From Aestuariimicrobium kwangyangense DSM 21549 (lineage in GTDB: Bacteria > Actinomycetota > Actinomycetes > Propionibacteriales > Propionibacteriaceae), in the NCBI RefSeq assembly GCF_000421525.1, contig NZ_ATXE01000001.1, positions 496,001-560,000 on the forward strand: a stretch of 64,000 nucleotides of DNA, read 5' to 3'. The notes under the pieces are model-generated. The model did no database searches and had not been told where the DNA came from. It was given only the letters and a program-made list of their open reading frames with translations. The translations under genes were made by a program, and so were the position numbers. Below, in pieces: positions 1-17,005 of this stretch (the stretch's first letter is position 1; each line of letters starts with the position of its first letter).

Positions 1-2604
1 GATGTTCCCAGGGATGTTCCGCTCACCGGCATCCCCGACGCCGAAGGTCGTCTCGGTGCAGCGAGCGGCGGAGTTCACCACTTCCTGCTCCCGGCAGAGG
101 GCTGGGGGTCAGCGATCAATGCCAAGGAGGCCAAGGAAATCGCTCCTGAGGCACTGGAGAGGCTGAAGCAGTGGCGCAAGCAGGTTCTTGTTCAGCCGAC
201 GAAGGCACAGGTCGAGACACTCGTCGGTCTTGGACGTCGAGTGGAGACTCTCTGGCAACTCGCATGGCGTCGTCTCTCGATCGCTGAGAGCGAGATCCGC
301 CGCTCGATCGACGTGTGGGGTGCTGACGACCTGCCAGTGGGTGGTGCCGTCACCCGCGACCAGATCGAAGAAAATCTCGCGAACCCGAATGGCGCCTACC
401 GCCGCCTACGTCGGGTGATGGATGCCTGGTGCGCCCTGTGGTTCTGGCCATTGACAGAGGAGACCGCGCCGCCGTCCATTGATGAGTGGATAGAGACGCT
501 CCAGAAACTCCTCGGTCGAGTCGGGAACGTGAAGAAGCAGCACGTGGGTCAGTTGTCATTGGCCTCTGCGGCGGCCTGGGACGACCTCGGTGTTGCCGAA
601 GAGAGCGACCTTGGTTTCGCGATGGTCAGCGACGTCGCAAAGGTCCTCGACGAGCACCCATGGCTGGCTGCCGCAGAGCGCGTCGCCGCGCAACAGGGCT
701 TCTTTCACTGGGAGCTTGACTTCGCCCCGGTCTTCTCGCGGGGCGGATTTGACCTCCAGATCGGAAACCCTCCGTGGGTCAGACCTGACTGGGATGAGGC
801 GGCCATTCTTGCTGAGTTTGATCCAAGGTGGAGCCTTGAGGGCAAGGTCGAAGCGAAGCTCGCCCCGGTGCGTCGGGACGAGACCCTTGGTTCCACGACG
901 GCTCAGAACTACTACCTCGATGCTTTGGTGGGTCAGGTGGCTGTGCGCGAAGCCGTGTCGCATGAAACGAGGTTCCCGCACCTGGTCGGCCTACGGCCAG
1001 ACCTCTATCGATGCTTCATGGAGCAAAGCTGGCGGCACGCCAAACCAACAGGTTCGGTGGGTCTCATCCATCCTGAGACGCACTTCACCGACGAACGTGC
1101 CGGGCTTCTTCGTGCGGCGACCTACCGGCGCCTTCGAAGGCACTGGCAGTTCATCAACGAACTGTCACTCTTCGAGGTGCATCACCTCGTGAGTTACGGC
1201 GTCCACGTCTACGGCGCGGCACGCGACGAGGTTTCCTTCCTCCAAGCGACGTCGCTCTATCACCCGGACACGGTCGAGCGGTCGCTCAAACATGATGGTT
1301 CAGGAACTGAGCCTGGCCTAAAGGACGACGACGGCCACTGGGACTTACGACCACACGCAGGCCGGATCACGAAGGTCGGCCTGGATGGACTCCGATCCTG
1401 GAACTCAATTCTTGGAGAGAGTGGGAGCCCAGCCCTGCACACCGCGATGGTCTACGAGGTGAACAGGACTGCCGCTTCTGTCCTTGCGAAGCTTGGGGCA
1501 TCGCCACGAGTTGCCAGCAGCGACCTACGATTCAGCCCCGGGCTGATCGAGACCGATGCTCGCAAGAAGCACTTGATCGAGTCCCGATGGGGTGAGCCGT
1601 CGACGGCCACCAACGTGGTCTTGCTGGGGCCGAATCTGCACGTCAACAACCCGTTCTACAAGAGCCCCAACCCGACGATGCGGAACAACCTTGACTGGTC
1701 GTTGGTGGACACCGAGCGCCTCCCAGTTCACGCCTTGCCGGTCACCTCGTACAAGCCACTTGCGACGGAAGGTCTCTTTGAGAATTCTCACCAGCAATGG
1801 GATGGCGTGCCGAGCGTACGCCTTCCTCGCGTCGCGTGGCGCGGCATGGCTGCGAATACTGGTGAGCGAACGCTGATCCCGACTCTTCTGCCGAGTGGCT
1901 TCACTCATGTGAACGCGGTCTTCTCGGCCGGCAGCCCAAGAGCGAGCGTCCGTGACCTAGCCTTGGTCCTCGCTTCGATGAGCAGCCTTCTGGGCGACTT
2001 CGTGATTCGCAGCGCACCGAAGAGCGGCATCTACATGACCGCCATGACGAGGATTCCACTCCCCAGCGACCGGCGTCTTCTAGACTTCGCCTTGCTCCGG
2101 GTCCTGAGGTTGAACTGTCTCACAGAGGCATACAGGGAGTTCTGGGACGGGACACACCTCGAGCGGGTTGCCGAGGACTACTGGACTGGCGGGATCGAGT
2201 ACGAAGGCCGTCCAGCTCTCGGTGATGTGCCACCGCGGTGGTCGGGATCCGTGCCGCTGCGAAGGTCATCCGATAGGCGTCAGGCTCAGTTGGAAGTCGA
2301 CGCGCTCATGGCGCTTGAAACGGGGGTGACGATCGAGGAGCTGATCACGATCTATCGCACGCAGTTCCCTGTTCTCCGAGGTTACGACCAGCGAACTTAC
2401 GTCTTCGACGCGAACGGCAGGCAAGTGCCGTCGTCGCTGCTGCCCGAGATCCGTAAGCATGGGGACGGTCTCCCCGTAGAGCTCAGATCGGTTGTTCACC
2501 CGCAGAGCGGTCACACGTATACGTATGAACCCCCTTATCGGACGCTAGACCGCGAGGCAGACCTTAGGCGGGCGTACACGGAGTTCCAGAGCCGACTGAT
2601 CTGA
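1..2604 (+). CDS. DNA adenine methyltransferase, C-terminal part (5' end outside window)
   Basis: The frame is open from the first base, so the gene starts upstream and only the last 867 codons are visible. The motif NPPW (about residue 256 of this part) is the catalytic motif IV of N6-adenine DNA methyltransferases. It is followed by a stretch (VGLIHPETHFTDE) that fits the next conserved motif of Eco57I-like enzymes. The remainder would be the target-recognition and C-terminal region. The product probably methylates adenine in host DNA, either as self-marking for the helicase/nuclease system that follows or as part of a restriction-methylase fusion. It is followed after 76 bp by the giant helicase gene on the same strand. 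The S-adenosylmethionine-binding motif I should lie upstream and cannot be checked here. Confidence 0.75.
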   Translation, partial: DVPRDVPLTGIPDAEGRLGAASGGVHHFLLPAEGWGSAINAKEAKEIAPEALERLKQWRKQVLVQPTKAQVETLVGLGRRVETLWQLAWRRLSIAESEIRRSIDVWGADDLPVGGAVTRDQIEENLANPNGAYRRLRRVMDAWCALWFWPLTEETAPPSIDEWIETLQKLLGRVGNVKKQHVGQLSLASAAAWDDLGVAEESDLGFAMVSDVAKVLDEHPWLAAAERVAAQQGFFHWELDFAPVFSRGGFDLQIGNPPWVRPDWDEAAILAEFDPRWSLEGKVEAKLAPVRRDETLGSTTAQNYYLDALVGQVAVREAVSHETRFPHLVGLRPDLYRCFMEQSWRHAKPTGSVGLIHPETHFTDERAGLLRAATYRRLRRHWQFINELSLFEVHHLVSYGVHVYGAARDEVSFLQATSLYHPDTVERSLKHDGSGTEPGLKDDDGHWDLRPHAGRITKVGLDGLRSWNSILGESGSPALHTAMVYEVNRTAASVLAKLGASPRVASSDLRFSPGLIETDARKKHLIESRWGEPSTATNVVLLGPNLHVNNPFYKSPNPTMRNNLDWSLVDTERLPVHALPVTSYKPLATEGLFENSHQQWDGVPSVRLPRVAWRGMAANTGERTLIPTLLPSGFTHVNAVFSAGSPRASVRDLALVLASMSSLLGDFVIRSAPKSGIYMTAMTRIPLPSDRRLLDFALLRVLRLNCLTEAYREFWDGTHLERVAEDYWTGGIEYEGRPALGDVPPRWSGSVPLRRSSDRRQAQLEVDALMALETGVTIEELITIYRTQFPVLRGYDQRTYVFDANGRQVPSSLLPEIRKHGDGLPVELRSVVHPQSGHTYTYEPPYRTLDREADLRRAYTEFQSRLI

Positions 2605-8600: not shown

Positions 8601-9019
8601 TGGGGCCGGCACACAAGGATGCGTGGCGCGAGTGGCTACGGATGGCCAATCTGCTCAACCTTCGACTCCAGTCGGCACACATCACGACTCACTCGCTCGC
8701 TGAGAAGTCGCAGGTGAAGGCGACCCCCCAGGGGGTCGAGTTGCCTGAGCCATGGGCATCTCTGTACCACGGCGCGGTGAGCGAAGTGGAGAAGATGCTG
8801 ATCGCACTGCTTGCAGAGTCGGGTGTGCCCGTCCCGTCCCTCGGCCACGAGACAGCCGGGGGACTGCCCATCCCCGTCTCCTGGCCGGACCGCCACATCG
8901 CCGTGGACATCGACCTTGCCGACCCGGACCGCGACGAACTGATGGACGATGGGTGGAAGCTCATTCCCCCGGACCTGGCCGCCATTCTGTCCACCTTCAA
9001 CACCACCGGAGCTCCCTGA
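2681..9019 (+). CDS. DruE-like DEAD/DEAH helicase with DUF1998 and C-terminal nuclease-fold domain
   Basis: The protein has 2,112 residues. Walker A TGTGSGKT is at about residues 108-115, motif II DEFH at 238-241, and motif VI QRVGRAGR at about 1090-1097. Several CxxC zinc ribbons are scattered through the middle (for example CRHCGRSGW, CPSCMQRDG, CPSCGYGQL, CSGCGKLDG). A DUF1998 region (VLIHDTVPGGTGYLAEL, then CPCRDEGRASCHRCL) spans about 1617-1667. A C-terminal segment with PDFVF, DGWRFH and a DD..K pattern resembles the Vsr-like restriction-endonuclease fold. Size and order match the large helicase of Druantia (DruE); DISARM DrmA/DrmB split comparable domains over two proteins. The likely role is translocation on foreign DNA in antiphage defence. 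It overlaps the next gene by one base (TGATG), indicating translational coupling. Confidence 0.8.
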   Translation: MSELLPGVQAPAIQDGILDYLSTTFALADQEARVALVEFLADRTNGIFKGPYLRARLPFKAADEGWRDSLEWYEGFPPYGHQAKAFERLSSLGVGESKPRPLPTLVTTGTGSGKTEAFLFPIIDHVLRAKRRGQTGMKALILYPMNALANDQAQRLASILTSSEALAGVTAAIYTGERGAERSKVSKDGLITRRDVIRSDPPDILLTNYKMLDQMLLRELDAQIWAKSATSLQYLVLDEFHTYDGAQGTDVSMLLRRLGLALKSYWPADAFTEAERARPLGVITPVATSATLGDKGDPSAMLEFARTVFGEEFDESAVVMESRLSVEEWAEGAVSLDARTDREAIENAVARSQGLTDGRAIAEAVLSRLFVTVTGGSPVLTRATPEVLLSLVKAHPFTLKLAALAERAQPLDVLIDEMLPGFSADERSRETAESFLLLFSAALSHVRKVAGRDALSIDLHLWVRELTRIDRVALGSPQYLWSDDTHLGGAGIDGEGSSAPAFPAVFCRHCGRSGWAVMRAPIGGFDLTADEASEIRLGRLTNNEEFRVLIHAPGEAESRNPSDAPAKLDPDEPRLMWFHTTERRVVAQRPEEDAESAASRVLPVLVHAGPKAGEFSTSDTCPSCMQRDGIRFLGSAIATLLSVGLSTIFGSDDLDKIEKKALVFTDSVQDAAHRAGFVQSRSHSLTLRAVLRGAVQDAPVSLDLLVDRAMQQAGDDAHLRYRLIPPDFADRKEFEDYWRRPKQSQVPAKVRTRVKRRLLLDTVLEFGLQARLGRTLELTGSLAAEVDITPEVMLKAAREVEEAVGPQAFEGMGVTDQQRIGWVRGVLERMRTDGAIEHEWFRTYQREDGNRFSIWGGRPRSDGMPAFPRGRGAPAYPRVGGAGGARDSDLVSAGSPKSWYAVWTSRVLACTPSEGASLALALLDRLASLDVINVVNTNSGAKLYELPQRGILVVPVEDDGYRDGSYLLACDVCRSPVPGTRRVVHELENQPCFVVRCTGSLVRTSGRPENFYRRLYQAADVTRVVAREHTSLLDDAIRLEYENQFKSSSENPQAPNVLVATPTLEMGIDIGDLSTVMLASLPKSVASYLQRVGRAGRLTGSALNLAFVSGRGEQLPRLGDPLSVINGQVRPPATYIDAEEILRRQYLASVADRLARRVDAPHPATASQAIGAVEPGSYLHAIIESAETTESLDTFLSSFDSLTDRSQERLKQWATPSSGSLTSQLSVHLHECRHQWASQVETLRHRIQEVQKSLPELQERADLPAATEDDHVALRTAKAALGLARKQLGDLQGDYWIGVLEEHGVLPNYTLLDDSVTLDVTMSWIDPDTQEYMSEPATFNRGASAALREFAPGATFYARGFKVQIDAVDLGSDGDAVRPWAFCPSCGYGQLLEGAKAPAACPRCGDTAISDLNQVLHVVELERVSSAMRREEATIDDGRDERERVTFQVVTAADVGAPRHQWFVQDYESGSFGLKHLTDMTIRWLNIGRVSDVGSGHRSLSGEEYVAPLFRVCSGCGKLDGRTGKNNPSEHRPWCMYRNAAQESVRQIALSRTLKTEAVVIQVPAAISVGDRFALPSLIAALQLGLREHLGGAPDHLAFERIIDPYLSDGSENREAVLIHDTVPGGTGYLAELASPAKMYALLRRAWVLVRDCPCRDEGRASCHRCLSPFINSFTQKYVSRAAAERHLKTLLISGRSEGEPSLDLGWQVTVEETVPSDQETHIEQKFRKILFDRLTKGLGASVHEQPGPSGNRWRINPGGSRTWVMEPQLALGGMQPDFVFYSSDPNIPRLAVFCDGWRFHASPGINRLKDDARKRAALRDQGYLVLGLTWQDLIDAEESSTTPPSWFADARWTAAMMAAGGKLKPGHFDLVKGGPIDFLVRWIAHPDSAGIEALSEALPLLLVGAGAHGKAGDSVSLLDLSRAFHDGNPLPTDGDRQVWGWQCDTLTVLARRVGARGHQTEVAVLLDDRSDRLGPAHKDAWREWLRMANLLNLRLQSAHITTHSLAEKSQVKATPQGVELPEPWASLYHGAVSEVEKMLIALLAESGVPVPSLGHETAGGLPIPVSWPDRHIAVDIDLADPDRDELMDDGWKLIPPDLAAILSTFNTTGAP

Positions 9020-11232
9020 TGCCCCAAATCATCCTCGGACCCCAGCAGTACGCGCCCAAGAAGCAGGTGGACGGATCAGTCCGTGGCAAGGCGTACAGCT
9101 TCCTGGCCAAGCTCGCTGAAGACGACAGTCTTCCGGGGCTGCACATCGAGCCGATCGTGAACTCCATCGATCCACGAGTGCGAACCGGACGAGTCGACGA
9201 CTTCTGGCGCGCGGTGCTCTTCAAGGTCCAAGGACACGAGCAGGAGGCAATCTACGTCTACCTGGGCGTGTGGCCGCACGACGCTGCGTCAGCATTCGCC
9301 ATGCGGGCCCAACTCAAGGTCAATCCCGTCAACGGCATCGCCGAGCTACTGCTTGCCGACGAGCCTGTGGTTTTGTCGCCACCGATCCGTCCCGTCACCC
9401 CGGAGCAAACACAGCCTGTCGAACCGCTGCTCGTCCGTCTTGGTCTCACCCTCGCGGCGCTGACCGACGATCTTGGTCTTGACCACGAAGTGGCTGAGTT
9501 GGCGCTGGAGTGTCTTGAGGCCGAGGACATCGTGGAACTCGCGGCGCTCGTCACCGGCTGGCAAGGCGTCGCGCTCATCGACCTCAGCGCGGGGCGTTCC
9601 ATTGAGGCGGTGAAGGAGGCGCTGGCGATCGATGTGGCAGAGGCTCCCGCCTCGGTCGAAGACGCGGATGTCGCTCTGGCCGCAGCGCTCAGCCACCCAG
9701 CTGCTCGTCTTCAGTTCGCGTTCATCGAGGACAACGAGGAACTCCGGCGGGCCATCGAAGACGCCGACTTCGCGGCGTGGAGGGTCTTCCTTCACCCCGA
9801 GCAGCGCAAGTACGCGGAACGCTCGTGGAAGGGCTCGTTCAGACTGTCCGGCGGCGCTGGCACTGGGAAAACGGTGGTTTTGCTGCATCGGGCGAGGAAC
9901 CTGGCTCGGAAGAATCCGCAGGCTCGCATCGTGCTCACGACATACAACAAGACCCTCGCGGACTCGTTGCTCCGAGACCTGAGGGTGCTCGACCCGACGC
10001 TGACCATCGCCGACAAGCTGGGGGAGCCAGGTGTCTTGGTTCGAGGCGTCGACGCGGCTGCCCGCTCCGTCATTCAGTCAGGTTCACCGGCGCTCGACTC
10101 AGCAGTCAGCCGCGTCCTCGGTTCGCGAACCAGCCAAATCGGCAAGGTGACTGACCGAAACGCTTGGCGAGACGCCATTGACTCGGATGGTTCTGGGCTG
10201 TCGGCCAATCTCAGGAGCCCAGCTTTCTTCCAAGCCGAATACGAACTCGTCTTGCTGCCCAACCGCGTGAAGACGTTGGAGGAGTACGCCAAGGTCCGCC
10301 GGCCGGGGCGTGGCGTGCCTCTCGACCGCAATGCGCGCGCTGCTGTCTGGGCTGTCATCAACTCCTACCGACTCAGCGCAGGTATCCACGGGAGTGCCGA
10401 CTTCCCGGAAGTGGCGGCCATCGCCGCTGAGGTGCTCAACGCATCAGGCGCTCGGCCCGCAGATCACGTGCTCGTTGATGAGGGGCAGGATCTCAGTCCA
10501 ACCCAGTGGCAGTTCCTGCGTGCCTTGGCCGAAGAGGGCCCTGACGATCTCTTCAGCGCGGAGGACTCGCACCAACGCATCTACGGCAATCACGTCGTCC
10601 TCGGTCGCTGTGGCATCAAGATCGTCGGTAGGTCCCAGCGATTGCGCCTCAACTACCGCACGACGGCGCAGAATCTCCGCTACGCCGTCAGCGTGCTCAC
10701 CGGCACAGAATTCGTCGACCTCGAAGAAGGGAAGGAGGACGCGAGCGAGTACCGCTCCGCCCGTAGTGGACCCCTTCCCCGACTCATCCCGGCAGCGAAT
10801 CTCACGGACGAGCTTGACCGAGCGGCGACGGTGGTTCGCACCTGGTTGGATGAACTCAAGGAGGGCGAAGGGCCTGAGACCATTGGGCTCCTGGTGCGAA
10901 CCGAGAAGGTCGGGGAGCAGCTCGTGCGCGCTCTGGAAGAGCGCCACGTGCCGTCTCGATTCGTCTCAGAAAAGTCCGTCCCCGTCGGGAAGCCTGTCGT
11001 CATGACGATGCATCGCGCCAAAGGCATGGAGTTCGCACGTGTGCTGATCTTCGGGGTGGATTCCTCCGCGCTCCCTGCGCCTTTCACTCTCAAGGACGTG
11101 CCCGAGGCAGACAAGGCGGACATTCTCCAGCGCGAGACCTCTCTCCTCTACGTGGCAGCGACCCGGGCGCGGGACGAGTTGGTCATCACGTGGGCAGGGG
11201 ATCCCAGCACGATCCTGCCAACCATGGTCTAG
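9019..11232 (+). CDS. UvrD/Rep-type SF1 helicase with RelE-like N-terminal domain
   Basis: The protein has 737 residues, and its ATG shares a base with the upstream stop. SF1A motifs are complete: GGAGTGKT (about 278-285), VLVDEGQDLSPTQW (about 485), EDSHQRIY, LNYRTT, MTMHRAKGMEF and LYVAATRARDEL. Residues about 22-97, including LHIEPI, RTGRVDDFWRAVLF and GVWPHDAA, resemble the RelE/ParE fold found at the N-terminus of some defence-island UvrD helicases. No PD-(D/E)xK nuclease motif is visible. With the DruE-like gene it forms an apparent two-gene operon. It probably unwinds or strips DNA as a partner of the large helicase. The helicase call is firm; the RelE-like fold is inferred from pattern only. 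Confidence 0.85.
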   Translation: MPQIILGPQQYAPKKQVDGSVRGKAYSFLAKLAEDDSLPGLHIEPIVNSIDPRVRTGRVDDFWRAVLFKVQGHEQEAIYVYLGVWPHDAASAFAMRAQLKVNPVNGIAELLLADEPVVLSPPIRPVTPEQTQPVEPLLVRLGLTLAALTDDLGLDHEVAELALECLEAEDIVELAALVTGWQGVALIDLSAGRSIEAVKEALAIDVAEAPASVEDADVALAAALSHPAARLQFAFIEDNEELRRAIEDADFAAWRVFLHPEQRKYAERSWKGSFRLSGGAGTGKTVVLLHRARNLARKNPQARIVLTTYNKTLADSLLRDLRVLDPTLTIADKLGEPGVLVRGVDAAARSVIQSGSPALDSAVSRVLGSRTSQIGKVTDRNAWRDAIDSDGSGLSANLRSPAFFQAEYELVLLPNRVKTLEEYAKVRRPGRGVPLDRNARAAVWAVINSYRLSAGIHGSADFPEVAAIAAEVLNASGARPADHVLVDEGQDLSPTQWQFLRALAEEGPDDLFSAEDSHQRIYGNHVVLGRCGIKIVGRSQRLRLNYRTTAQNLRYAVSVLTGTEFVDLEEGKEDASEYRSARSGPLPRLIPAANLTDELDRAATVVRTWLDELKEGEGPETIGLLVRTEKVGEQLVRALEERHVPSRFVSEKSVPVGKPVVMTMHRAKGMEFARVLIFGVDSSALPAPFTLKDVPEADKADILQRETSLLYVAATRARDELVITWAGDPSTILPTMV

Positions 11233-11249: not shown

Positions 11250-12146
11250 CTACTGAACCCCTCGACTCTCCCAGGCGCCGAACATCGTTCCGTCGGCCCC
11301 GATCCATTCCCTTCGTCCATTGCACGACCGCCCGAGGCAGATCGCTCCCGCCGTCGAGGGCGACCCGAACACGACGTCACGGGTGAAGACGCCGACTCCG
11401 TCGACCGCTGAGATCGAGCCCTCGGCCACCAGCCGTTCATGCTCGGCGCGATACGACGCGTAGGCCTTGATCGTGCTCGGAGCTTTTCCCGTTCCGTGCC
11501 ACGTCGCCACGCACTTGGATCCTGCCAGAACGGTGAACTCGCCATCGACTTGCTGGGCCTGGGCCTCCACGCCCAGTTTGGGTTGTCGCAGGTGGAACAC
11601 CGGCGAGACCAGCTCTTCCCTACGGGTGGGCAGGATGGTGTCCAGCTCACGAGCGCGGATCGCGTCGACACCCAGCACCGGAAGCACAATCTGCAGTTGT
11701 CCGACGAAGTAATCCATGTCGGAGCTGTGAGCTTCGGGCAGAGGCTGTGGGGGCGGGGTCGTCCCGTTCTCCAACACCACGCGACCAGCCTGTTGAGCGA
11801 GAGTGATGAGCCGCGACTCGAGGTATCTTCCGTGGGCTTTGGTGAGATTCGCGTCCTTCGAGGTCACCACGACCACGCGGCGCCAGAACTCCTTGTTGGC
11901 GTCGTGGTATCGCAGCCGAGACTTGAAGTCATCCGTTTCACCGATGTAGCAGCGCGTCCCACCGCCCTCGTCGGGGCCGAGCAGAAGGTACACGCATGTA
12001 CCGGCGAGCTCGGTGCGTGCGACCAAGGTGCTCATCTCGGAACGCGGCGCGCTCAGAACTTGCCCCGTCCAGTTCAGGATTTCCGCAGTGGTCAGACCAC
12101 CAGGAGTTCCATCCACGAGGAACAGTTCAATGTGCTTGCCCGCCAT
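11250..12146 (-). CDS. GIY-YIG nuclease family protein with C-terminal DUF4357
   Basis: The protein has 298 residues from ATG 12146. The GIY-YIG core appears as CVYLLLG (51-57) and CYIGETDD (66-73), followed by Arg in SRLRYHD (76-82) and the probable metal-binding Glu in GRYLESRLI (E110). The C-terminal quarter (IKAYASYRAEHERL, FTRDVVFGSPSTAG) matches DUF4357, often paired with this nuclease type. It is convergent with the UvrD gene (17 bp apart) and divergent from the helicase-sigma gene (186 bp apart). It may be an effector nuclease of the island or an independent passenger. The start with Met-Ala-Gly-Lys was chosen because the upstream extension is low-complexity and overlaps the intergenic promoter space. 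Confidence 0.8.
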   Translation of the reverse strand: MAGKHIELFLVDGTPGGLTTAEILNWTGQVLSAPRSEMSTLVARTELAGTCVYLLLGPDEGGGTRCYIGETDDFKSRLRYHDANKEFWRRVVVVTSKDANLTKAHGRYLESRLITLAQQAGRVVLENGTTPPPQPLPEAHSSDMDYFVGQLQIVLPVLGVDAIRARELDTILPTRREELVSPVFHLRQPKLGVEAQAQQVDGEFTVLAGSKCVATWHGTGKAPSTIKAYASYRAEHERLVAEGSISAVDGVGVFTRDVVFGSPSTAGAICLGRSCNGRREWIGADGTMFGAWESRGVQ

Positions 12147-12332
12147 GGCTGCATTGTGTCGTGAACCTCCGACACTACGGGCGGTCAGGGGTGACTCTGG
12201 GGCGGGCCACCGTCGTGGCTGTCGGTCCGACACTGTCGACGGACAACGTTTCCCGCGACGTCGCAGAAATGTCAGAGGCTTACTCCATTATCGATCCAAG
12301 GGCACTGGAGCCCAGCGGACTGAGGGGGACAC

Positions 12333-15062
12333 ATGAGAATCGTCGACGAGCGTGACCAGTCGTTCGAGTCCGTCACTCGGTCGCTGCCCGCGCTCTCGCT
12401 CTATCGCTGGCAGGAAGAGGCGCTGAGCGAGTGGCGGCAGGCCTGGCACCGAGGAGTCGTGCAGGCCGTCACGGGGGCTGGCAAGACGCGAGTCGGTCTG
12501 GCCGCCATCGAGCTCGCCCATCAGCGTGGCCGTCAAGCGGTGGTGCTGGTGCCGTCGTTGGCCCTCGCGAAACAGTGGGTCGTCAATCTCCGGACGCACC
12601 TCCCTCAGATGAAGGTGAGGACTGATCTGAACTCGTCGGTCCCTTGGGATGTCACCGTCACCACGGTGCAGTCGGCCATGAATCGTGCGTCGCTCACCGC
12701 TGTGGGTGGCCTGCTCGTCGCGGACGAGTGTCACCGCTACGGCGCAGAGAGCTTCGCGTTGGCTCTCAGCCCCGCATACACCTGGCGCCTTGGGCTCAGC
12801 GCCACCTTCCAACGCAATGATCTGGGCGATGAAGTACTTCGGGACTACTTCGCAGGCGTGTGCTTCGACTTGGGGTACCAACGAGCAACAGCCGACAGGC
12901 TCATTTCTCCGTTCAAGGTGGCCTTCGCTTCTGTTCCGCTCAGTTCGAAGGAACGGACAAGGTACGTCGAAGTCGATGCCGAACTGAAGCACCTTCGTCA
13001 GGTGTTGGTGCAGCGTTTCGAGGTGGTGAGTGATCCGGTGGGCGAGTTCCTCAAAGGGGTCTCCGCCCTCGCAGAAGACCGGGACCCGTCGTCAGGTGGC
13101 GGGGTGGCCCGGCGCTACATGGCTCGCTTCTCCGAGCGGAAGTCGTTGCTCGCCGAGACCCAGATGAAGTACATGGCGCTCGCCGGTGTCTCACCCGCCG
13201 TGCACGGTGCTGCGGGGACGATTGTCTTCACCCACACCCAGAAGTCGGCCGAGGAGGCCGCAGAGGTTCTTGGGTCCACGGGATGCTCTGCGGCCGCGGT
13301 GCATGCCGAGCATCCCATCGACGAGCGAGAGTCCCGGGTCGAGATGCTCAGGACGGGTGAAATCACTGCCCTCACAGCTCCGCGGGTGCTCGATGAAGGC
13401 ATCGATGTACCCGACGCCGACCTCGGCATCATCCTTGCCTCCAACCGCAGCCGTCGCCAGATGATCCAGCGCCTCGGACGAGTGCTGCGACGCCGCGATC
13501 AGAAGCTCGCCCGGTTCCTCATCCTCTATGCGGAGGGAACGGTCGAAGATCCCTTCGCGTCCGGAGCCATCCCAGACTTCTACGACGAATGTCTGCCCTT
13601 CGCCGTGGCCGAGCGCCGCTTCGATCTTGGAGCGAACCAGTTGCCGCAGCTGCTGGAGTTCTTGGGTGTCAGTGCGGACGCCACGAGCGCGCGGGTCGGC
13701 AACGAGATTGTCGAGGCGAGTGGGGAACGTGCCTCCGGGCCCGCTGCGGACGAGGACGCGCGGCTGGCAGAGACAGAACCGGTCGCGGTGATTCAACCAA
13801 CTCCCGAGGTTGTCACCCCGTTCTCCCGGTTCCTGCTTGCTCCTCCAGCGATGTTCGCTCGCTGCACCGCCGACGTGATCCACGACTACCTGCACACCTT
13901 GAGGCAGTACCCGCTTCTGTCAGCCGAGGAAGAGGTGCATCTGTCCAAGGCCATCGAGGTGGGGCTCTATGCGCGGCATCTGCTCGAGACAGGGGGCTCA
14001 TCCCATATCGAGGTCACGCTCGAACAACTTTGGCGCGAGGGTGAGTTGGCCTTCCAGTGGATGGTGGTGTCGAACCTCCGGCTGGTGGTGAACATAACCA
14101 AGGGGTACGTGGGGCAGGGCCTCGACTTCGAAGACCTCATCCAGGCTGGCACTGAGGGACTCGTCCGGGCTGTCCACAAGTTCGACTTCACCCGAGGACT
14201 CAAGTTCTCCACCTATGCGACCTGGTGGATCAAGCAGTCGGTGACCCGGACTCTCGCGGACGAGGGAAGGCTCGTCCGGCTGCCCGTCCACTTCGTCGAG
14301 AAGCTCCGACCTGTGGACGGGCTGCGACGGCGGAACGACCAGACCTGGGCGCAGTTCCTTCTTGCCCATCCCGAGGGGCTTACTGACCTTGAGGTCAGCG
14401 GTCAGGATTTGAGGCGCATGGCGACTCTGTCTCGATCCTGGTTGAGTACGGAGTGGTTGACGGAAGAGGTTGCCGACTCGTGGGTTGCTTCCCCAGTGGG
14501 AGGGGCGGATGGGGATTCCGCGATTGAGGCCTGCGTCGACATCGTTGCGAATCATGCTCAGGTGCACCAGATCTTGGCCGAGCTCACCGAGACCTTCCCC
14601 GTGGGTGTGTTCGTGCTGAAGGCCCGTCATGGCCTGCTGACAGGGGAACCCGAGACCTTGGACACGATCGGCCGGATGCGCGGCGTCACCCGTGAGCGAA
14701 TTCGGCAGATCGAGAAGCAGGCGCTGGAGCTCTTGACCCATCACCGGGTCGTACCTGCGACCCCACCCGAGCAGAAGTCGTCGGCGAAGCAGAAGGCGAA
14801 GGGGAAGATCAAGGCGACCGTCAACAAGGGGGCGGCCACAAGGGGGAAGTCCATCCCAGTCGTCCGGCCAGCGGCACTTTCGAAGAGCGTCCCCACGCCC
14901 CAAAGAGAACGTCGGCCCGGCTTGCTCTCGGCCAAGTTCCAGAAGCAGCTCGCCCTGAACAGCCAGGGCCCGGCGGCCCCGCGCCGTGCGCTGCACACAT
15001 CGGCTTCAGAGGCGTGGCCGACAGTCGGAGCGGCGCCCCGACGTGCACTCCTGGAGCCTTGA
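12333..15062 (+). CDS. SF2 (SSL2/XPB-like) helicase fused to a sigma-70 factor
   Basis: The protein has 909 residues. The N-terminal half is an SF2 helicase: LYRWQEEALSEW (23-34), Walker A TGAGKT (47-52), DECH (131-134), SATFQRND (about 155), VLDEGIDVPDADL (about 351) and QRLGRVLRR (about 378-386). After a linker (about 455-490), residues about 489-800 form a sigma-70 factor. Region 1.2 is DVIHDYLHTLRQYPLLSAEE, and region 2 includes NLRLVVNITKGYVGQGLDF and FSTYATWWIKQSVTRTLAD. Region 4.2 is GVTRERIRQIEKQALELL. The Gln and Thr of region 2.4 and the RERIRQIE helix of region 4.2 are kept, so canonical -10 and -35 recognition is expected. The tail (about 810-909) is Lys/Arg/Pro-rich. The start is preceded by GAGGGGG. 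One continuous frame crosses the junction. It probably couples DNA translocation or opening to RNA polymerase recruitment; no function is known to me. Confidence 0.9.
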   Translation: MRIVDERDQSFESVTRSLPALSLYRWQEEALSEWRQAWHRGVVQAVTGAGKTRVGLAAIELAHQRGRQAVVLVPSLALAKQWVVNLRTHLPQMKVRTDLNSSVPWDVTVTTVQSAMNRASLTAVGGLLVADECHRYGAESFALALSPAYTWRLGLSATFQRNDLGDEVLRDYFAGVCFDLGYQRATADRLISPFKVAFASVPLSSKERTRYVEVDAELKHLRQVLVQRFEVVSDPVGEFLKGVSALAEDRDPSSGGGVARRYMARFSERKSLLAETQMKYMALAGVSPAVHGAAGTIVFTHTQKSAEEAAEVLGSTGCSAAAVHAEHPIDERESRVEMLRTGEITALTAPRVLDEGIDVPDADLGIILASNRSRRQMIQRLGRVLRRRDQKLARFLILYAEGTVEDPFASGAIPDFYDECLPFAVAERRFDLGANQLPQLLEFLGVSADATSARVGNEIVEASGERASGPAADEDARLAETEPVAVIQPTPEVVTPFSRFLLAPPAMFARCTADVIHDYLHTLRQYPLLSAEEEVHLSKAIEVGLYARHLLETGGSSHIEVTLEQLWREGELAFQWMVVSNLRLVVNITKGYVGQGLDFEDLIQAGTEGLVRAVHKFDFTRGLKFSTYATWWIKQSVTRTLADEGRLVRLPVHFVEKLRPVDGLRRRNDQTWAQFLLAHPEGLTDLEVSGQDLRRMATLSRSWLSTEWLTEEVADSWVASPVGGADGDSAIEACVDIVANHAQVHQILAELTETFPVGVFVLKARHGLLTGEPETLDTIGRMRGVTRERIRQIEKQALELLTHHRVVPATPPEQKSSAKQKAKGKIKATVNKGAATRGKSIPVVRPAALSKSVPTPQRERRPGLLSAKFQKQLALNSQGPAAPRRALHTSASEAWPTVGAAPRRALLEP

Positions 15063-15148: not shown

Positions 15149-17005
15149 ATGCCCGGAGGCTACGAGAAGGCCATCACGATCGAGTCGGCGATGAGGAGCA
15201 TCGCCGAGCGGCGCTACCTGCTGCCGTCCATCCAGCGCAAGTTCACCTGGGACATGGATCAGGTGTGTCGCCTCTTCGACTCGATCATGCGGCACTACCC
15301 GATCAACAGTTTGATGCTCTGGAAGGTCGATGCCGCTGAAATTCGCACGGGGTTTCGGTTCTACGAGTTCCTGACCAAGTACGCCGAACGCTATGCCGAG
15401 AACAATCCGGACTTCGACACCAAGGGACACGGTGAGTTCTTTGCAGTCATCGACGGTCAGCAGAGGCTGACGTCGCTGTATATCGGCCTGAAGGGCACCT
15501 ATGCAGTGAAAAGGCCGCGCGCCTGGTGGCCCAAGGCGTATGACCCCGCCATCCTGCCGCCGCGGACGCTGCATCTGAACCTCGCCAAGCCTCTCGATCC
15601 GGAGCAGAACGACGACCAGCTCACCTTTGAGTTCCAGTTCCTCACCGTCGATGCGCTGGCGAAGAAGCCGAAGGACTCTGAGAATCTCTGGTTCGAAGTG
15701 GGTGAGATCCTCCAGTTCCCGGCGGTGGAGACGGACGATGAGATCCTCGACCACGTCATGGAGTACCTCGATCGAGCAGGCCACGGCACCAACAGCTTCG
15801 CCAGGAAGACGCTCCTGCGCCTCTATTTCGCCATTCGTCGGGAAGCAACGCTGAACTACTTCGTCGAGGAGAGTCAGGACATCGGAAGAGTCCTCGACAT
15901 CTTCATCAGGACCAACGAGGGTGGCACCCCCCTACGCTTCTCCGATCTGCTCATGTCGATCATGTCGGCCAACTGGGAAGACGCACGTGACCGGGTGGAC
16001 GAAGTGGTCAATCTCGTCCGCGTGGAGTTCGGTTTCTCCATCGACCGTGACCTCATCATGAAGGCAGCAGTCATGATCACCGACGCTGACGTCCACTTCC
16101 AGGCGCGGAACTTCGACGCTGGCAATGTTGACAGGATCAAGGGCTCCTGGGATGACATCCGCGACGCTGTCGTGGCGACGTTCAGGCTGATCGCGTCGTT
16201 CGGCCTCAACGACGCATCCCTCCGATCGAAGAACGCCGTCTTGCCCATCGCCTACTACCTCTTCCACAAGGGACGAGACAGCACGACCGGGGCCCGTGGC
16301 CGTTTCGGGACGATCAACACCCCAACCGCGCACCGCGGGGATCGCATGACGATCCGTACGTGGCTGATGATGTCGCTGCTCCGAGGCGTATTTGGACGAT
16401 CTGCGGACTCACTGCTCATCGGACTGCGGAGGATCATTCGCGACAACATCAACGATCCAGAGGGGTTCCCGCTCGACCAAATCGTTGCCGAGTATCTGGG
16501 TCGCCCGCGCGACCTGACTTTCGACGATGGCTTCGTCGATCGGCTGCTAACCACGCAGAAGGACGACCCGACCTGCTACTCGATCCTCGCCCTGCTCCAG
16601 CCGGATGTCGACATACAGCAGCAGCTCCATGCCGATCACCTTCACCCGGCAGCTGACTTTCGGGCCGAGCGCCTGGACAAGCGCAGCTTCCTTGAGGGCG
16701 ACTTGGAACTGCGGGCCTTCTACGAGAACCGATCCAACTGGAACGGAATCTGCAACCTGTGGCTGCTCACGGAGAACGAAAACACCTCGAAGCAGGACAA
16801 GCCGCTCCAGGACTGGCTTGAGCCACGTCTGGGCAGGACCACTCTCGATCCATTGATCCCGCCCGGCGCAAGCCTCGATTTCGCCGACTTCAAGGACTTC
16901 GTCGAGAGACGTCGGGCGCTCCTGAAGCGCAAGCTCCAAGCTCTCGTCGGCGACGAGGTCGTCGGAGTGGCAGCGGCTCGACCTGATCTCGGGGACGAAG
17001 ACTGA
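15149..17005 (+). CDS. DUF262/DUF1524 protein (GmrSD/SspE-like nuclease)
   Basis: The protein has 618 residues. The DUF262 signatures are LPSIQRKFTWD (25-35) and VIDGQQRLTSLY (100-111); the DGQQR pocket is the nucleotide-hydrolysing ParB/Srx-like site in characterised relatives. Near the C-terminus, ADHLHP (about 494-499) and NLWLLTENENTSKQDKP (about 535-551) match the HNH-type DUF1524 nuclease domain. This domain pair occurs in modification-dependent restriction enzymes (GmrSD, BrxU) and in SspE of phosphorothioate systems. It lies 86 bp behind the helicase-sigma gene on the same strand and is the obvious candidate for co-transcription with it or control by it. It is followed by a hairpin at 17043. 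Confidence 0.85.
   Translation: MPGGYEKAITIESAMRSIAERRYLLPSIQRKFTWDMDQVCRLFDSIMRHYPINSLMLWKVDAAEIRTGFRFYEFLTKYAERYAENNPDFDTKGHGEFFAVIDGQQRLTSLYIGLKGTYAVKRPRAWWPKAYDPAILPPRTLHLNLAKPLDPEQNDDQLTFEFQFLTVDALAKKPKDSENLWFEVGEILQFPAVETDDEILDHVMEYLDRAGHGTNSFARKTLLRLYFAIRREATLNYFVEESQDIGRVLDIFIRTNEGGTPLRFSDLLMSIMSANWEDARDRVDEVVNLVRVEFGFSIDRDLIMKAAVMITDADVHFQARNFDAGNVDRIKGSWDDIRDAVVATFRLIASFGLNDASLRSKNAVLPIAYYLFHKGRDSTTGARGRFGTINTPTAHRGDRMTIRTWLMMSLLRGVFGRSADSLLIGLRRIIRDNINDPEGFPLDQIVAEYLGRPRDLTFDDGFVDRLLTTQKDDPTCYSILALLQPDVDIQQQLHADHLHPAADFRAERLDKRSFLEGDLELRAFYENRSNWNGICNLWLLTENENTSKQDKPLQDWLEPRLGRTTLDPLIPPGASLDFADFKDFVERRRALLKRKLQALVGDEVVGVAAARPDLGDED

Follow-up and report, generated by a model that had tools for sequence, protein, structure and literature searches.

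In the actinobacterium Aestuariimicrobium kwangyangense DSM 21549, one gene joins an XPB-fold helicase of superfamily 2 (SF2) to a sigma-70 factor. It lies in a 64,000-nucleotide stretch of contig NZ_ATXE01000001.1 (positions 496,001 to 560,000 of the forward strand; assembly GCF_000421525.1), which we call the window. We find that this is a real, conserved and recurrent domain fusion and no assembly artefact. In our best reading, to which we give a probability of roughly 0.45, the protein would be an accessory of defence islands, its SigA-like module guiding an XPB-fold translocase to promoters or to RNA polymerase.

A helicase and a sigma factor in one reading frame

As the original prediction had claimed, the two proteins share a single 909-codon frame, open from ATG to stop and with GAGGGGG just 5' of the ATG (Table 1). 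Pfam searches returned ResIII (residues 22-161; 6.5e-19), Helicase_C (296-387; 2.8e-15) and DEAD (26-161) in the helicase half, and Sigma70_r1_2 (4.1e-9), Sigma70_r2 (5.5e-18) and Sigma70_r4 (6.2e-8) in the sigma half, at the spans given in Table 1. All of these score above the curated cut-offs; ERCC3_RAD25_C, with 27.1 bits on the helicase half, lies at its cut-off of 27.0. An AlphaFold2 model made from 22 aligned sequences, with a mean predicted local distance difference test (pLDDT) of 77, contains two well-folded parts, at about residues 18-463 and 496-806, and disorder at 468-495 and 807-909. As relatives spanning most of the protein are 39-60% identical to it, a chance origin is excluded.

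The original prediction turned on the fusion not being confined to this assembly, and it recurs in other genomes. Across 391 genomes of the window's order, 18 match at 1e-60; when their frames were read, 15 encoded both halves, within a single gene or in neighbouring frames, and three had the helicase only. Eleven of the 15 are unbroken (two are cut by a contig end) and four are broken or partial. In a sample of 396 genomes from the phylum, both halves were matched, among the matches listed, only in the window's own genome and in L052. A scan of named genomes, which overlap those of the order survey, kept 80 loci of 275 relatives. Both halves are found in 26 of these, 23 times in one open frame and three times in broken frames (L088, L093, L094); within the 23, the start of L085 is cut by the contig, the sigma half of L099 stops after region 2 and L112 lacks the helicase start. 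The remainder consist of L133, where a separate sigma frame stands directly behind the helicase, and 53 loci where the helicase alone was found. The 26 loci belong to six families (Propionibacteriaceae, Nocardioidaceae, Micrococcaceae, Microbacteriaceae, Dermatophilaceae and Geodermatophilaceae).

Two plasmids, from Paenarthrobacter and Pseudarthrobacter (L048, L049), bear the fusion with an extra C-terminal HA domain, and it was on their records that we met the annotation 'sigma-70 family RNA polymerase sigma factor'. They measure 427-440 kb and have dnaE and ssb genes of their own, some kilobases away from the fusion. A phage origin was rejected, since the 14 pattern matches in IMG/VR include no sequence that encodes a relative and, of 101 phage records with a match, none spans 80% of the protein. 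Separately, three Geodermatophilaceae loci (L105:4442-8479, L122:9548-13537, L145:2224-6123) encode proteins of about 1300 residues that each contain a tandem pair of SF2 helicase units; that of L105, which was tested, ends in DUF3427.

Both halves are under purifying selection. In seven of eight pairs, the ratio of nonsynonymous to synonymous substitution (dN/dS) was 0.04-0.15 for the helicase, 0.08-0.21 for the sigma factor, 0.18-0.77 for the linker and 0.19-1.32 for the tail, values from simple counting, with several dS above 1 and partly non-independent pairs, that show only that both halves are constrained. The eighth pair, L112/L047, was excluded because its helicase frames are broken. 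A decayed or artefactual fusion with a functionless sigma half would explain the four broken or partial copies in the order, yet the constraint on that half and its recurrence in many loci make this extremely unlikely.

The helicase half has an XPB-like fold, and its closest sequence profiles are PbeA and TIGR04095, ahead of the bacterial XPB model. The catalytic residues of its SF2 motifs are nearly invariant: the Walker A lysine is present in 31 of 32 fused rows, the remaining row having a gap, and the D, E and H of DECH and the Q, R and R of motif VI are present in all 32. Foldseek ranked archaeal XPB first. The top match in VIA-align was XPB of a TFIIH complex (7egb_6; Z 27.7, root-mean-square deviation 3.7, 378 aligned), and XPB-Bax1 (6p4f_C) gave Z 27.0, deviation 3.1 and 373 aligned; the matches listed were helicases, aligned to model residues 10-464, so this comparison does not address the sigma half. 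The label 'SSL2/XPB-type' thus holds for the fold and the SF2 motifs, which are common to TFIIH XPB, archaeal XPB-Bax1 and the window helicase, but not for the nearest sequence profiles. These are the restriction helicases of DNA phosphorothioation systems: PbeA is the best PADLOC profile (5.5e-60) and, in NCBIfam, TIGR04095 scores 134.9 bits against 82.8 for the bacterial XPB equivalog NF045503. The latter has a cut-off of 610 bits, which rules out orthology to bacterial XPB, and the window protein differs from it in having a sigma module of its own. TIGR04095 likewise falls short of its cut-off of 600, the PbeA and TIGR04095 models contain no sigma module, and no phosphorothioation genes were recognised among the neighbour genes scanned.

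Kept and lost parts of the sigma half

Foldseek found bacterial sigma-A chains among the matches to the sigma half. As a reference we used 141 positions invariant in 19 SigA sequences, and compared with them 29 main fused sigmas, a set that omits L103_F and L105_F (reported separately), partial sigmas (e.g. L093, L094, L099) and second copies, and that counts the second frame of L088 as fused. W124, Q127, R131, H145, R274, E275, R276, R278 and Q279 occur in 29/29, W123 in 28/29 and T130 in 25/29, and D93, Q96 and E97 in 27, 27 and 24 of the 29. We take the roles of these positions, -10 reading, -35 reading and, for D93, Q96 and E97, docking on core polymerase, to be those carried over from E. 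coli work. The earlier statement that the -10- and -35-reading residues are kept is right for most of them, which are near-invariant.

The loss is concentrated in region 3. In the fused set, the fraction of SigA-invariant positions kept is 0.78 in region 1.2, 0.80 in 2.1-2.2, 0.85 in 2.3-2.4, 0.71 in 4.2 and 0.32 in 3.1-3.2; seven SigB-like sigmas give, in the same order, 0.88, 0.80, 0.88, 0.57 and 0.56, and the window protein 0.69, 0.66, 0.77, 0.73 and 0.35. By the marks of the sigma-70 family (group 1/2 type), the window protein has regions 1.2, 2 and 4 with the -10 and -35 readers, and fails in region 3 with its finger. 'Near-complete sigma', as the original prediction put it, is fair in that region 3 helices are visible in the AlphaFold2 model, but Pfam r3 has no match in the window protein and the finger is eroded. 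The finger motif is altered also in L103 and L105, which by region are otherwise mostly SigA-like; stand-alone DISARM sigmas, described below, retain more of it, as judged by eye. Fused sigmas thus have the promoter readers and most core-docking positions in common with SigA (HrdB), and differ from it in being joined to a helicase, in their eroded finger and in evolving faster.

The best PADLOC match of the sigma half is MzaA (7e-43), which is also among its best NCBIfam matches (7e-62). By its NCBIfam name, and according to PMC9523054, MzaA is the sigma factor of the MZA anti-phage system (mzaABCDE), and so a defence-associated sigma-70 module like that of the window. However, only the sigma part aligns (MzaA residues 471-704 of 726), and the score of 210.2 bits to NF041931, against a cut-off of 800, rules out membership of MZA. 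None of MzaB-E was found among the five window neighbours, the upstream DrmD-like gene and the IIG homologue scanned, and none of 296 genomes of the phylum has MzaA above the cut-off. Helicase-sigma fusions are not described in the open-access literature matches listed, a coverage outside which most subscription papers and bioRxiv preprints lie. Passages of PMC12839542, PMC7641849, PMC10924106 and PMC8195603 describe none, nor do those of PMC7824862, whose subjects are phage sigma factors, polymerase-recruiting minimal sigma-like proteins and the anti-sigma AsiA.

One reading of this conservation is an ATP-assisted alternative sigma, whose holoenzyme would switch on defence genes while the helicase senses damaged or foreign DNA or opens promoters like XPB in TFIIH. 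Such a protein could well keep regions 2.1-2.4 about as SigB-like sigmas do, with 1.2 a little lower, and nearly invariant readers; the XPB fold, the existence of MzaA and the stand-alone sigma of two DISARM-like operons agree with it too. As the readers are those of housekeeping SigA, however, a private regulon is not obvious, and we found no sigma-70-like promoter between positions 11000 and 17700, near the neighbouring genes (0 against 0.7 in shuffled sequence; such a scan is weak at high GC). The finger is altered even in L103 and L105, a sister clade has region 4 alone and the partners vary among lineages. We therefore consider an alternative sigma somewhat unlikely. The earlier proposal that the fusion switches on the neighbouring nuclease gene is so far not supported; the SigA-type readers, the lack of a recognised promoter, the eroded finger and the sister clade speak rather for steering of the helicase, with transcription less likely.

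The core-docking positions would suit a different job, in which the sigma module docks on RNA polymerase and the translocase releases the enzyme from DNA when it is stalled or hijacked, much as RapA, HelD or Mfd do, as upkeep or in infection. These positions are mostly kept, the fold is that of an XPB-type translocase, and HelD is reported in complex with polymerase, SigA and RbpA in the abstract of PMC11464796. Polymerase clearing is nonetheless improbable, as near-fixed -10 and -35 readers would be superfluous for it and the link with restriction-type genes would be left unexplained.

To place the fusion among its relatives, we built trees of both halves. The helicase tree, from which most second copies of a genome (L035 and L099 were both kept) and matches that were too short or below 300 bits had been dropped, unites all 32 fused rows with seven unfused ones in one clade (92 by the Shimodaira-Hasegawa-like approximate likelihood ratio test, SH-aLRT, a quick method); L088, counted among the seven, has a broken frame. 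Outside it, a sister clade of 14 Rhodococcus and Gordonia rows carries a C-terminal region-4-like domain on the helicase. This domain scores 5 to 25 bits against a custom profile in 13 rows, several of them not significant, and passes the Pfam cut-off of 24.1 in both proteins tested (29.3 and 28.2); the -35 readers are lost in the rows shown. In this clade (L126:9926-11656 and its relatives), an XPB-like helicase ends in a degenerate sigma region 4.

In the first sigma tree, one branch (99/98) separates the 29 fused sigmas from all other sequences, and the branches of fused sigmas are longer than those of SigA. L103 and L105 group with SigA, and L105 is placed next to its own genome's SigA, to which it is 73% identical. 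With two DISARM sigmas added, in a tree that left out rows L189_s417, L179_s278 and L193_s335, no single branch sets the main fused group apart any longer, and L090 moves beside the DISARM sigmas (85/82). Approximately unbiased (AU) tests of a single clade gave p 0.043 when every fused sigma was included, 0.18 when L103 was omitted, 0.64 when L105 was omitted, and 0.047 for the fused and DISARM sigmas together. The trees hint at repeated capture of host SigA by the helicase, a conclusion not firmly reached because these p-values are borderline or not significant. The separate sigma frame of Rhodococcoides kyotonense (L133:11660-12664), directly behind a region-4-bearing helicase, also lies near its own genome's SigA.

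A sigma half that mimics SigA might instead be an integrated decoy, a bait for phage anti-sigma whose capture releases the helicase. The grouping of L103 and L105 with SigA and the long branches of the fused sigmas would fit a decoy, and AsiA binds host primary sigma (PMC7824862). But a bait has no need of nearly invariant DNA-reading residues, and with the AU tests for separate captures as they are, we regard a decoy as a poor candidate.

Neighbourhoods of the fusion

Table 1. Features of the fusion and its island in the window.
Feature	Coordinates	Strand	Basis
Whole fusion gene, 909 aa	12333..15062	+	open frame, Pfam
XPB-fold SF2 helicase, residues 18-463	12384..13721	+	Pfam, structure model, fold comparison
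Linker, residues 464-513; pLDDT <50 at 468-495	13722..13871	+	structure model
Sigma region 1.2, residues 514-546	13872..13970	+	Pfam
Sigma region 2, residues 578-646	14064..14270	+	Pfam, residue alignment
Eroded region 3 and finger, about residues 652-760	14286..14612	+	structure model, residue alignment
Sigma region 4, residues 761-801	14613..14735	+	Pfam, residue alignment
Disordered tail, residues 807-909	14751..15059	+	structure model
DUF262 (GmrSD_N) gene, directly downstream of fusion	15149..17005	+	PADLOC HEC-05, 5e-193
DUF4357 gene, divergent from fusion	11250..12233	-	PADLOC candidate PDC-S14, 7e-115
UvrD-like SF1 helicase; frame from 8752, ATG at 9019 likelier start	9019..11232	+	Pfam, PADLOC
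MrfA/DruE-like giant helicase (DEAD, Helicase_C, MZB), 2128 aa	2633..9019	+	Pfam, PADLOC
Type IIG restriction-methyltransferase-like gene, 3' part; begins upstream of window	1..2604	+	homology

The window's island reads, in order, DrmD-like SNF2, IIG methyltransferase-like, MrfA/DruE-like, UvrD-like, DUF4357 (opposite strand), fusion and DUF262; the SNF2 gene (L030) precedes the IIG gene outside the window. The original prediction was right that no anti-sigma gene adjoins the fusion, none being recognised among the adjacent genes scanned. DISARM is marked by DrmA, DrmB and DrmC with a methyltransferase. Among the island genes scanned, we saw DrmD-like and IIG/DrmMI-like genes, the MrfA/DruE-like protein sits at the expected position of DrmA/DrmB, and DrmC was unrecognised. 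Related neighbours occur beside unfused helicases: a DUF4357 copy, 47% identical, lies near that of Nocardia aurantia (L115), and on Tsukamurella and Rhodococcus plasmids (L258:37809-42528, L050:12382-17316) a DUF262 gene is divergent from an unfused helicase relative, recalling the DUF262 neighbour of the window's fusion.

In other genomes, the fusion's neighbours are often, not always, defence genes. Pseudoclavibacter caeni, of another family, has, in order, the fusion and DrmD-like, IIG, MrfA-like and UvrD-like genes, the same four as in the window's island; in Tessaracoccus rhinocerotis, DrmD-like and IIG genes follow the fusion, and in T. massiliensis DUF262 and type I restriction genes lie near it. 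A NERD-UvrD gene directly precedes the fusion at five closely related Arthrobacter/Pseudarthrobacter loci (L089, L091, L092, L093, L095), and in all of these except L093 we saw a PD-DExK protein and a UvrD-PD-DExK protein after it. The PADLOC NERD+UvrD profile has a single match in six of 11 genomes, by coordinates within about 20 kb of the helicase each time, and no match in one of the 11. Among the six, one helicase is unfused, and in the window and P. caeni the match is the UvrD-like gene, not NERD. We accordingly rejected the identity of the window's UvrD with the NERD-UvrD of other loci: the NERD-UvrD query misses it, though its best PADLOC profile is the same. In 11 of the 14 rows with region 4 only, the helicase immediately follows an MTES_1575 AAA protein; the remaining three loci have little upstream DNA.

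A stand-alone sigma-70 gene occurs in two actinobacterial DISARM-like operons (L260:9873-11630, L261:9055-10935), where it sits between a divergent DrmMII-like gene and DrmA-, DrmB-, DrmD-like, IIG, MrfA-like and UvrD-like genes. Its best PADLOC match is MzaA, in part; the drm labels of L261 come from 71-85% identity to L260. On an E. coli conjugative plasmid (L259:8582-24805), an SNF2, methyltransferase, DEAD helicase and ATP-dependent helicase block is 30-40% identical to the window's island, and the two genes preceding it presumably resemble Druantia III.

A SigA-like module as a possible aiming device

Near-fixed readers, mostly kept docking positions, an eroded finger and a clade with region 4 only favour, as far as sequence comparison can tell, an aiming module over a gene-specific initiator. 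In the best reading, promoter DNA, for example the strong promoters of incoming DNA, would be found by the sigma module, either on its own or together with core polymerase, and the tethered translocase, loaded at the promoter, would pump or open the DNA. Partner enzymes would then take over the DNA; these would be the DUF262 protein and the DrmD-like/IIG/MrfA-like/UvrD-like block in the window, and UvrD/PD-DExK or MTES_1575 proteins elsewhere. Because the finger is eroded, productive initiation would not be the main job. We infer polymerase docking, promoter loading, hand-over and a defence role alike. In an open complex, sigma region 1.1 has its place near the downstream DNA, which is where the fused motor stands, and XPB in TFIIH acts on downstream DNA; this match of positions is suggestive only.

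Several observations weigh against this reading. Invariant promoter readers are equally expected of a working sigma, and a sigma that has lost its finger may still initiate. The window protein lacks two core-docking positions, E97 and N99, and because the predicted template modelling score (pTM) of the whole fusion is 0.53, the mutual placement of its halves is not predicted. The frequency of defence neighbours is a raw tally with no matched random baseline. The neighbours scanned in genus g17 are GST and DUF222 genes, the two plasmids have no neighbour annotated as a defence gene, and MTES_1575 has matches in 10/10 genomes searched and is thus common, so that its nearness to the helicase says less. 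The helicase was present in 0/16 other IIG-block loci in the flanks fetched (16 matches besides the window's own, from 40 matching genomes of 394, some cut by contig ends), and a stand-alone sigma in 2/16. We therefore rejected the view that the fusion is a core component of the DrmD/IIG/MrfA/UvrD block, which lacks it at all 16 loci, as far as the fetched flanks extend, and on the E. coli plasmid; its absence there and its varied neighbours make it an accessory with changing partners.

More specifically, the fusion could be an immune enzyme, a promoter-guided translocase in which the SigA-like module, with or without polymerase, steers the XPB-type motor to invader start sites and so feeds partner nucleases, an idea that we hold only tentatively. 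If it is true, bacterial defence reuses sigma modules for aiming: they are joined to a helicase in this protein, reduced to region 4 in Nocardiaceae and Gordonia, and stand-alone in DISARM-like operons and MZA. Proteins plainly named 'sigma-70 family RNA polymerase sigma factor' can then be something else. In eukaryotes, the translocase and the promoter are brought together by TFIIH, a factor of its own. A conserved sigma-translocase on a single chain would be a small counterpart of promoter-bound XPB that lends itself to testing. It would also link transcription initiation with bacterial immunity, and would suggest that promoters themselves can mark invading DNA.

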